Shown here: positions 44,487 through 46,814 of the stretch, one piece after another | How positions within the stretch are numbered: position 1 is the stretch's first letter | Layout: each line of letters starts with the position of its first letter | Assembly: GCF_002220775.1 (NCBI RefSeq) | Contig: NZ_CP019685.1 | Coordinates: 186,001-250,000 of the forward strand | Length of the DNA: 64,000 bases | Reading direction: 5' to 3' | Origin: Campylobacter sputorum | Lineage (GTDB): Bacteria; Campylobacterota; Campylobacteria; Campylobacterales; Campylobacteraceae | Program-made: the position numbers and the translations under genes | The notes under the pieces: generated by a model | What the model was told of the DNA's origin: nothing | The model's database searches: none | The model's input: the letters and a program-made list of their open reading frames with translations, nothing else

Positions 44487-44951
44487 TTGCTTTGGGAAAA
44501 ATTAACGCTTAATGATTTAAAAAGAGTTAATGATGAGATTAATGAGCTAAATAAAATAGATATAACTAACTATAAAAGTATTATTGATAAGAAAATAGAA
44601 GCTATAGTAGAACCCGTATTAATAAATTATAATTTTTTAAAAAAATATGATAAGTGCAATGGGAATATAGCTAAAATTTTAAAGTTATTAGATGATTTTA
44701 TAAATTCAGACGATATCTCTGAGAATATAAAAAACAAAATTCTTGATTGCAAAGATAATTTAGAAGAAATACAAAATAATGGAATAAATGTATTATACAA
44801 TGAAGATAATTTACACAACTTTAGAATATCTATAGTAAATATTATAGGTATTCTAAATTCCGAGAAAAAAATAATAGAAAATTATATACATTCAAGTGAT
44901 CAAAAATATAAAAATAAATTATATAATGAATATTTAAAATGTGAAAAGTGA
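44487..44951 (+). CDS. Unknown 154-residue helical protein, first gene of an AT-rich accessory block
   Basis: I do not recognise this protein. It is predicted cytoplasmic, almost all alpha-helical and rich in Asn, Ile, Lys and Leu. Possible coiled-coil stretches lie near residues 5–35 and 115–150, with no signal peptide or membrane span. The start is TTG at 44487, 7 bases after AAAGG. Base composition is visibly more AT-rich than in ilvD next door, suggesting a different history. Its end overlaps the next gene by 11 bases, so the two are probably coupled and may act together. Confidence 0.6.
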   Translation: MLWEKLTLNDLKRVNDEINELNKIDITNYKSIIDKKIEAIVEPVLINYNFLKKYDKCNGNIAKILKLLDDFINSDDISENIKNKILDCKDNLEEIQNNGINVLYNEDNLHNFRISIVNIIGILNSEKKIIENYIHSSDQKYKNKLYNEYLKCEK

Positions 44952-46218
44952 TGTAAATGAAATTTATGAAAATAGAGCGAGTATTTATTCAAATAATATA
45001 AAAATGTCAAACTTTATTGGGGAGCATTCTAAAAATTCTATTTATAATTTTGTTTTTATTGTTAGAAAATGGTGTCTTAAGAATTTGGTTTTGTCTTTTT
45101 ATATTATGTTATTTATCGGGGCTTTGTTTTGTTGTCCTTATTTTTTTAAAATAGGTTTGATTCCTGATATTTCTATAGATTCTGCAATACCAACTTTATT
45201 TTTTATATCTACTATTGGCTTATTGATTGGTACGCTCATATATGTAGGTTTTGTATTTCAGAATCAATTGTCTTTTAATATTTTAATTAATATAGATAAT
45301 AAAAAAATAAATAATATTATTAAGTTTTTAGCTTCAATTTCTTGGGTTATATTTTTTGCGATAATAATGACCCCATTTGCACCTGATTTTTATTTTATAC
45401 AGTCTATTTCTGAATACATACTTAATAATTTCAATATTATATTAATAGTATATGTTGTAATATTATTAATTTTTTGCTTAGTATTTTTTATATCCAAGTC
45501 AACAAATAAATTTCCTAATATAATTTTGTATTTTATTATTACGGTTTATTTTGATTTTTTTATACTATATGCTGTTTATTTAAATTATAACAATATAAAT
45601 TTATCTGTTCTTGTCATTTCAATGTTTATATTATTTTTATTAAAAATAATTAATTTATCAAAAGAACCTTTAAATAAATTAATTATTTCATTATCTAGTA
45701 TTTTCATTTTTTTTACAATATGTCTAATAAGTCCTAATTTTGTTAGAGGAGTAAAATTAGCAAATTATAAGGATGATTTTACAATAAAAAAAGAATTTGT
45801 TCCAAAACCTATCTTAAATTTACCTAATTGCTTTTATAGTTATAATGAAGCTTGCACATATAATCTTACTAATGAAGAAGATAAAATTACTATAAAAAAT
45901 CTTTTAGTAAGAGTAAAATCAGACGGTAGATATCATTTTTGTGCAAATATGAATTTAAAAGATGATTTTAATTTAACAAAAAGTATTTTAAAGACAGATA
46001 AAGATGAAGATGAAAAAAGTATAGACATAAAAAAGAGAACATCTAAAATTTTGAAAATAGATGAGAATACTACAAAAAATACTTATTTTATATACAATAG
46101 CGACTCAAATGTAACCGAAGTTAAAAATTATCATAAACTATTTTTAAATTTTACAAAAGATAAGAATATTGGTATATATTATGATTTTCATGTGCATGAA
46201 AAAAATATTGTAAATTAA
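44941..46218 (+). CDS. Unknown multi-pass membrane protein with a C-terminal soluble domain
   Basis: An unrecognised 425-residue protein. Residues 1–45 are polar. About seven hydrophobic segments follow between residues 50 and 265, for example 'FYIMLFIGALFCCPYFF' and 'LILIFCLVFF'-type stretches. A hydrophilic tail of about 155 residues (from RGVKLANYKDDF on) contains two Cys pairs' worth of residues (NCFYSYNEACTY, HFCANM) and many Lys and Asp. The GTG start is inside the upstream gene with no ribosome site of its own, pointing to translational coupling. Its AT content is as high as that of its partner. Transport, sensing or defence roles are all possible, and nothing in the sequence decides. 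Confidence 0.65.
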   Translation: MKSDVNEIYENRASIYSNNIKMSNFIGEHSKNSIYNFVFIVRKWCLKNLVLSFYIMLFIGALFCCPYFFKIGLIPDISIDSAIPTLFFISTIGLLIGTLIYVGFVFQNQLSFNILINIDNKKINNIIKFLASISWVIFFAIIMTPFAPDFYFIQSISEYILNNFNIILIVYVVILLIFCLVFFISKSTNKFPNIILYFIITVYFDFFILYAVYLNYNNINLSVLVISMFILFLLKIINLSKEPLNKLIISLSSIFIFFTICLISPNFVRGVKLANYKDDFTIKKEFVPKPILNLPNCFYSYNEACTYNLTNEEDKITIKNLLVRVKSDGRYHFCANMNLKDDFNLTKSILKTDKDEDEKSIDIKKRTSKILKIDENTTKNTYFIYNSDSNVTEVKNYHKLFLNFTKDKNIGIYYDFHVHEKNIVN

Positions 46219-46269
46219 AATATATAATTTGGCTATTTATAATTTTTATCCTAAAAAGAAAGGTGACAA

Positions 46270-46422
46270 ATGGAAGCAGCAGGAATAGGCGGATTTTCAT
46301 TAGGAACGGTTATAGCAGTTGCACTATCATGGTCTGCAAACAAGAGTATACTTTGGGCTATAGTGCATGGGTTTTTTAGCTGGTTTTATGTGATTTACTA
46401 TTTTATAGTAAAAAATAGATAA
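46270..46422 (+). CDS. Small membrane protein, tandem copy 1 of 3
   Basis: A 50-residue protein: MEAAGIGGFSLGTVIAVALS leads into WSANKSILWAIVHGFFSW and a YVIYYFIVKNR end. Two short hydrophobic helices are separated by SANKS, a hairpin-like membrane protein. AAAGGTGA lies just before the ATG. The W-S-x-N-x-S-I-L-W-A-x-x-H-G pattern resembles short uncharacterised bacterial proteins whose function I do not know. It differs from copy 2 only in its first residues (MEAA versus MGRSL); from 46281 on, the DNA is identical. Confidence 0.75.
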   Translation: MEAAGIGGFSLGTVIAVALSWSANKSILWAIVHGFFSWFYVIYYFIVKNR

Positions 46423-46678
46423 AAATATTTTCAAAGGATTATTTATGGGAAGATCATTAGGAATAGGCGGATTTTCATTAGGAACGGTTATAGCAGTTGC
46501 ACTATCATGGTCTGCAAACAAGAGTATACTTTGGGCTATAGTGCATGGGTTTTTTAGCTGGTTTTATGTGATTTACTATTTTATAGTAAAAAATAGATAA
46601 AAATATTTTCAAAGGATTATTTATGGGAAGATCATTAGGAATAGGCGGATTTTCATTAGGAACGGTTATAGCAGTTGC
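46281..46678 (+). repeat. 178-bp tandem direct repeat carrying the small-protein genes
   Basis: The 220 bases from 46281 to 46500 are identical to those from 46459 to 46678, a shift of exactly 178 bases. The unit spans one small gene plus its 22-base spacer and ribosome site. Exact identity, including the non-coding spacer, marks a recent duplication. Confidence 0.9.
46445..46600 (+). CDS. Small membrane protein, tandem copy 2 of 3 (chimeric copy)
   Basis: A 51-residue protein. Its 5' part (MGRSLGIGGFSLG) equals that of copy 3, and its 3' part (NKSILWAIVHGFF to KNR) equals that of copy 1. The DNA matches copy 1 exactly over the shared region and copy 3 exactly up to base 46500, the outcome expected from unequal crossing-over between two older paralogues. 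AAAGGATTATTT precedes the ATG. All three copies keep open frames. Confidence 0.75.
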   Translation: MGRSLGIGGFSLGTVIAVALSWSANKSILWAIVHGFFSWFYVIYYFIVKNR

Positions 46679-46772
46679 TCTTTCATGGTCGGCAAATCAT
46701 AGTATATTGTGGGCTATAATACACGGATTTTTAAGTTGGCTTTATGTTATTTATTACATACTTTTAAAATAA
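46623..46772 (+). CDS. Small membrane protein, tandem copy 3 of 3 (diverged 3' half)
   Basis: A 49-residue protein with the same first 20 residues as copy 2, then synonymous and conservative changes: NHSILWAIIHGFLSWLYV, ending YYILLK. The DNA changes after 46678 are mostly third-base changes, which implies selection on the protein. The same AAAGGATTATTT ribosome site is used. A strong terminator starts 9 bases after the stop. Confidence 0.75.
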   Translation: MGRSLGIGGFSLGTVIAVALSWSANHSILWAIIHGFLSWLYVIYYILLK

Positions 46773-46780
46773 TTTTATAA

Positions 46781-46814
46781 AAGCATATATCTTAAAAAAG
46801 ATGTATGCTTTTTT
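46781..46814. terminator. Strong terminator closing the small-protein cluster
   Basis: Arms AAGCATATATCTT (46781–46793) and AAGATGTATGCTT (46798–46810) pair with a single T·G wobble across a 4-base A loop, followed by TTTT. It also stands at the end of the convergent antiporter gene (stop at 46818), so it may work in both directions. Confidence 0.88.

Follow-up and report, generated by a model that had tools for sequence, protein, structure and literature searches.

We identified an array of three tandem genes, each encoding a membrane protein of about 50 residues, in a 64,000-nucleotide stretch of Campylobacter sputorum DNA (the window). The explanation that we tentatively regard as the best is that this is a recently formed array within an unnamed but widespread family of predicted two-helix hairpins, which may self-assemble without a dedicated partner. 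Below we describe the array and its origin, the protein and its relatives, and other roles that the protein might have.

RESULTS

Structure of the array

The array is built on a 178-bp direct repeat that carries three intact small-membrane-protein genes (Table 1). Each base from 46281 to 46500 is identical to the base 178 positions downstream, and Tandem Repeats Finder scored the repeat as by far the strongest array of the window (period 178, score 834). A 42-bp tract is identical in all three copies (46281-46322, 46459-46500, and 46637-46678). Past this tract, types A and B are alike at 67 of 90 bases, and the codon differences between them are mostly synonymous. An initial annotation, made from the sequence alone, had described three tandem genes on an exact 178-bp repeat, with copies 2 and 3 identical up to 46500/46678 and diverging mainly at third codon positions thereafter, and both descriptions were borne out. 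Its statement that the frames, ribosome sites, and final terminator are intact also proved correct: a Shine-Dalgarno-like AAGG lies a few bases 5' of the ATG of each ORF, and one terminator was found at the end of the array, against 0.3 expected by chance.

Table 1. Coordinates of array features in the window
Feature	Position	Strand	Description
Copy 1, type A: MEAAGIGGFSLGTVIAVALSWSANKSILWAIVHGFFSWFYVIYYFIVKNR	46270..46422	+	ORF, 50 aa
Copy 2, chimera: B 5' end (MGRSLG), A helix part and 3' end (IVKNR)	46445..46600	+	ORF, 51 aa
Copy 3, type B: MGRSLGIGGFSLGTVIAVALSWSANHSILWAIIHGFLSWLYVIYYILLK	46623..46772	+	ORF, 49 aa; orthologue G001B in L107
178-bp repeat unit, first copy	46281..46458	+	Identical to 46459-46636
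178-bp repeat unit, second copy	46459..46636	+	Extra unit relative to sister species
42-bp tract common to all three copies	46281..46322	+	Must contain the crossover
Putative -10 element TATAAT, single promoter for three-gene array	46238..46243	+	About 27 bp 5' of first ATG
Intrinsic terminator closing the array	46779..46812	+	15-pair stem, loop of 4, T-rich tail

The TATAAT upstream of copy 1 is the putative -10 element of a single promoter for the array. Together with a first hexamer at 46215 it matches the consensus at 10 of 12 positions, and the putative promoter is unchanged in the sister species. Promoter-like sites as a whole numbered 34, which is not clearly above the 25.5 +/- 5.1 expected by chance.

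It is hardly credible that the true genome has two copies and that the third is an artifact of assembly. Short tandem repeats are prone to misassembly, and the array is known here from the assembly. However, the assembly is a single 1.68-Mb contig (99.98% complete), the chimeric gene is the exact product of a biological crossover, and tandem copies also occur in two independent genomes (G768 and G235).

Origin of the third copy

The genome is that of a Campylobacter-type bacterium, and its enolase is nearest to PDB 3qn3, the C. jejuni enzyme. The sister species (G001) has exactly two genes at the array site, an A gene (MEAAG...IVKK) and a B gene (MGRSLG...ILLK). The array regions of the two species are 94 to 95% identical in DNA and differ by one 178-bp unit. 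The middle protein of the window begins like that of copy 3 and ends like that of copy 1, and its gene had been interpreted as a crossover chimera. This is strongly supported by the sister species, which has the exact A-B two-gene precursor. Judging from these sequences, the array almost certainly arose by unequal crossing over in the 42-bp tract common to A and B. An older A-B pair would have become A-(B/A)-B through one unequal exchange between misaligned copies, inside the 42-bp tract, and the array now has two A-type helix regions and one B-type region. Copies 1 and 2 have no differences in 178 bp, which sets an upper 95% bound of about 1.7% (3/178) on their divergence. Since the sister species differ by about 5%, the duplication either was recent or was followed by conversion. 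The array is a clear-cut and recent example of how a gene can be amplified through a common 42-bp tract.

The present event was probably not the first exchange of sequence between A and B. The Leu codon of FSLG is TTA in both genes of the window and CTA in both genes of the sister species. Similarly, the 42-bp tract is the same in A and B of the window, and the two genes of the sister species differ at three of its codons. In a tree of 38-codon cores the Campylobacteraceae copies grouped together, but the tree did not show whether the A genes of the window's genus and of G768 are orthologs; the A/B pair may be ancient or may have arisen twice. The A-type copies of the two genera (window copy 1 and G768A) are both acidic at the start (ME), contain FFSWF, and are basic at the tail (KNR or KNKR), and the single copies of other species look B type.

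Selection and copy number

Pooled across the Campylobacteraceae copies, pN was 0.064 and pS was 0.66. Over the 38-codon core, the A gene of the window differs from that of the sister species (G001A) by four synonymous changes and no nonsynonymous change. These substitution patterns leave very little doubt that the genes encode a real, conserved protein under strong purifying selection.

Among the 15 Campylobacteraceae carriers (one genome per species), we counted three copies in the window, two in each of G001, G768, and G235, and one in the rest. Carriers of four other phyla had exactly one copy in 93 of 93 cases. Multicopy carriers thus numbered 4 of 15 in Campylobacteraceae and 0 of 93 elsewhere (Fisher p = 0.00025, which is only indicative, as related species are not independent). 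It had been proposed that dosage of the protein may be under selection and that a varying copy number with open frames would support this. Copy number did vary among relatives (one, two, or three), and the frames were not all open: in G235, a frameshift and a TAG mark the upstream, A-type copy (L133:7027-7223) as a pseudogene, and the downstream B-type copy is intact. Selection on dosage was not borne out by the array itself, because copies 1 and 2 are too young for their intact frames to be informative about selection for the extra copy.

On balance, we lean toward the third copy being a neutral by-product, with tandem copies gained and lost freely via unequal crossing over and without a dosage benefit. 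The 178-bp identity of copies 1 and 2 and the lack of this unit in a 95%-identical sister species indicate a recent event, the decay of the G235 copy indicates that extra copies can be lost, and family members elsewhere are single copy. Against this, the core dS between A and B is 0.68 to 1.0, far above the 0.13 to 0.17 between the two sister species, and A and B are both intact in both species, so the two-copy state, at least, has been kept. Neutrality of the third copy concerns copy number, not the action of the protein, and is compatible with a self-assembling hairpin. The related species provide a natural dosage series of one, two, and three copies, together with one decayed copy.

The protein is predicted to be a two-helix membrane hairpin

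AlphaFold2 predicted helices at residues 12 to 24 and 26 to 48 (mean pLDDT, 78.6; pTM, 0.38). Two conserved i,i+4 stripes, G13-A17-S21 and S27-A31-G35-W39, run along them. A profile search yielded 41 members, which were aligned with no motif filter: G13, S21, S27, and W39 were present in all 41; A31, H34, G35, and Y41 in 40; and A17 and W30 in 39. Position 25 was N or H in these members, and position 26 was mostly K, H, or Q. All three window copies contain the full pattern G13-x3-A17-x3-S21 plus S27-x2-W30-A31-x2-H34-G35-x3-W39-x-Y41. A first sample of 92 sequences, biased by its retrieval with the peptide NHSILWAI, had G13-A17-S21-N25 in 90 and S27-A31-G35-W39 in 90; the invariance of NHS in that sample was rejected as partly an artifact of the retrieval.

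Close packing of two neighboring helices is usually marked by small residues at i,i+4 on both. As such stripes occur on both helices, the protein is very probably a two-helix membrane hairpin whose helices would pack via the stripes, with the near-invariant H34 inside helix 2. The tails are positive and the turn is neutral, so both ends are predicted to be cytoplasmic.

In three Bacteroidota members (L077:4911-5132, L099:4902-5135, and L192), the hairpin is preceded by an N-terminal extension that resembles a signal peptide, and its turn is more basic. These two features suggest that the hairpin is inverted in the three proteins, and they make the predicted orientation less certain. A Turicibacter member (L098:4824-5123) departs from the rest of the family: its hairpin is joined to an N-terminal stretch that is charged and about 50 residues long.

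Distribution of the family

A scan of 84,980 species genomes returned 163 loci with relatives. The 80 loci that were kept include Betaproteobacteria, Bradyrhizobium, Gemmatimonadota, Bacillota, Bacteroidota, Zixibacteria, and Acidobacteriota. In even genome samples, carriers numbered 12 of 399 Pseudomonadota, 5 of 280 Bacillota, 17 of 278 Bacteroidota, and 59 of 279 Gemmatimonadota, all of them single copy and with the phylum of each sample taken from its center genome. These rates are slightly high because the center genome of each phylum sample was a known carrier. A family member was also found on 16 IMG/VR contigs. Two of six plasmid hits lie at sites without a listed gene (L177:4001-4123 [CP009417.1] and OY725846.1:274373-274489), and annotation therefore overlooks some members.

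Neither Pfam nor NCBIfam has a model for the family; searches of both gave no significant match, and searches of PHROGs, PADLOC, and Rfam likewise gave none. No solved structure was matched in PDB sequence and fold searches, and a full-text literature search with the peptide NHSILWAI returned no paper. Weak matches to NCBIfam HetP (3 of 56 members; best E, 0.0023) and to phrog_17707 and phrog_11342 (best E, 0.005 to 0.009) were taken as chance for short hydrophobic proteins.

Genomic context

In 12 of the 15 Campylobacteraceae carriers, the gene lies directly, or one gene, before a gene for a MetN-like transporter ATPase, and in 11 it has valS upstream and the MetN-like gene downstream (contexts read by eye, with only the L136 gene checked by profile [ABC_tran plus NIL]). 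The twelfth (G045) precedes a similar transporter gene without valS. A diaminopimelate dehydrogenase gene lies between the small gene and the MetN-like gene in several species. The window's genus and G029 lack the metN link. A survey of about 118 loci, with genes called by a simple script and many of the loci metagenome assembled, revealed no conserved partner gene beyond close relatives, and no neighbor was common across phyla. The phage copies that we read were located among nucleotide-metabolism and accessory genes.

In the window's genus, an AT-rich gene that matches no family precedes the array, which faces, on the opposite strand, a gene for a Na+/H+ antiporter. The upstream gene (44487-46218) has no Pfam match and a GC content of only about 19% over much of its length. 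The sister species has it as a single ORF of 576 aa (L107:4987-6717); in the window, a 1-base difference splits it into ORFs of 154 and 425 aa that overlap by 11 bases (44941-44951).

Possible modes of action

We propose that the hairpin acts without a dedicated partner and self-assembles in the cytoplasmic membrane, where A would also assemble with B. The result might be a small assembly, either conducting or membrane modulating, in which His34 lies in the helix interface. Action without a dedicated partner is suggested because the gene stands alone, has no cross-phylum neighbor, shows a patchy distribution, and is also found in phages. Self-assembly is the simplest action for a 50-residue hairpin, and we infer it provisionally as the working principle. 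A proton or ion path would be in keeping with the predicted placement of His34 in a membrane helix. Against self-assembly, the pTM is only 0.38, no solved structure matches, and predicted helix 1 is short for a segment that has to cross the whole membrane. A bolder version, which we consider improbable, is a self-contained two-helix assembly in bacteria and phages alike, acting as a minimal channel or His34 proton path, with A and B as two subunits in Campylobacteraceae whose ratio is tuned by unequal crossing over. If it is true, the signal-peptide-like forms of Bacteroidota mean that the hairpin works in either orientation.

A doubtful alternative to self-assembly is that the protein is a small regulatory or stabilizing subunit that docks into a larger, common membrane protein, usually encoded elsewhere. 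CydX, AcrZ, and KdpF are examples of small subunits of larger membrane proteins. The size and hydrophobicity of the hairpin are typical of such a subunit, its conservation is very strong, and the proximity to the MetN-like gene in most Campylobacteraceae carriers, usually after valS, agrees with docking. The missing conserved neighbor would also be expected, because a common membrane partner could be encoded elsewhere. However, no neighbor was common to different phyla, and the metN link does not extend to the window's own genus or to G029. In addition, the patchy occurrence of the family (about 2 to 6% of sampled Bacillota, Pseudomonadota, and Bacteroidota genomes) and its carriage by phage contigs fit poorly with one fixed partner.

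It is highly improbable that the array is a tandem type I toxin cluster in the style of Ldr, Ibs, or ZorO, with each toxin silenced by an antisense RNA. A leader structure that hides the ribosome site is common, although not universal, in type I toxins. At the three starts of the array (one leader length), fold z-scores were -1.05, 0.05, and 0.05 and the Shine-Dalgarno regions were unpaired, so the starts are not hidden by stable structure. Promoter-like matches were not clearly above chance and no Rfam family matched, and synonymous sites are saturated with change, with no hint of a conserved overlapping RNA. Some type I toxin loci were discovered as tandemly repeated small hydrophobic genes (PMC8309996; PMC4147584), and Ldr, Ibs, and ZorO are likewise small hydrophobic proteins in tandem repeats. 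The array family differs from them in having two predicted helices, a single copy elsewhere, and conservation across phyla, and the array shows no sign of antisense RNA or a structured leader. Furthermore, membrane type I toxins have been described only from Proteobacteria and Firmicutes (PMC8309996), whereas this family is conserved across many phyla. The initial annotation had suggested a toxin-like or defense function, which found no support in the Rfam search or the z-scores, and known antiphage defense systems found no support either (0 PADLOC families for six proteins, i.e., the array proteins and their neighbors in the window).

A phage-related membrane protein common to phages and bacteria, serving in superinfection immunity or resembling a holin, is quite improbable as well. 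Some of the IMG/VR members lie beside terminase-like and nucleotide-metabolism genes (by eye), and there were weak PHROG holin matches (phrog_1129; 7 of 56 members; best E, 0.095), none of them a significant profile match. However, no member was found in 50,697 annotated phage genomes (E 0.01, with the window B copy as the query), lysis genes were not recognized by eye beside the phage copies read, PADLOC gave no match, and the superinfection immunity family Imm_superinfect (PF14373) was unmatched.

Comparison with known small proteins

Imm_superinfect had been suggested by eye. It is also a short two-helix membrane domain, and the likeness consists of Thr-hydrophobic-Ile-Ala in helix 1, an Asn before helix 2, and a Trp in helix 2. 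None of 56 members matched it at E values up to 1. The profile-profile probability was 0.4%, a weak test since the Imm alignment contained three sequences, and in the three sequences fetched helix 2 has no His, unlike in the hairpin family. Pmp3 (PF01679), also suggested by eye, was rejected on similar results (0 of 56 members matched; profile-profile probability, 0.4% over 4 columns with 29 Pmp3 sequences). Pmp3/YqaE proteins also have about 50 residues and two membrane helices and are widespread in bacteria, but the Pmp3 sequences fetched have a PP-x-G motif that the hairpin family lacks.

The GMSC catalogue contains 2437 multi-phylum small-protein families found in all habitat classes, of which 752 have a Pfam annotation (PMC11364881). 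Like the present family, these are conserved proteins of <100 aa that occur in several phyla (PMC11364881). In comparison with them, the defining residues, copy number, and neighborhood are described here for the hairpin family. A 50-residue protein that has no curated model and keeps about 10 near-invariant positions in carriers as different as Campylobacter, Gemmatimonadota, Bacillota, and phages clearly merits functional study.
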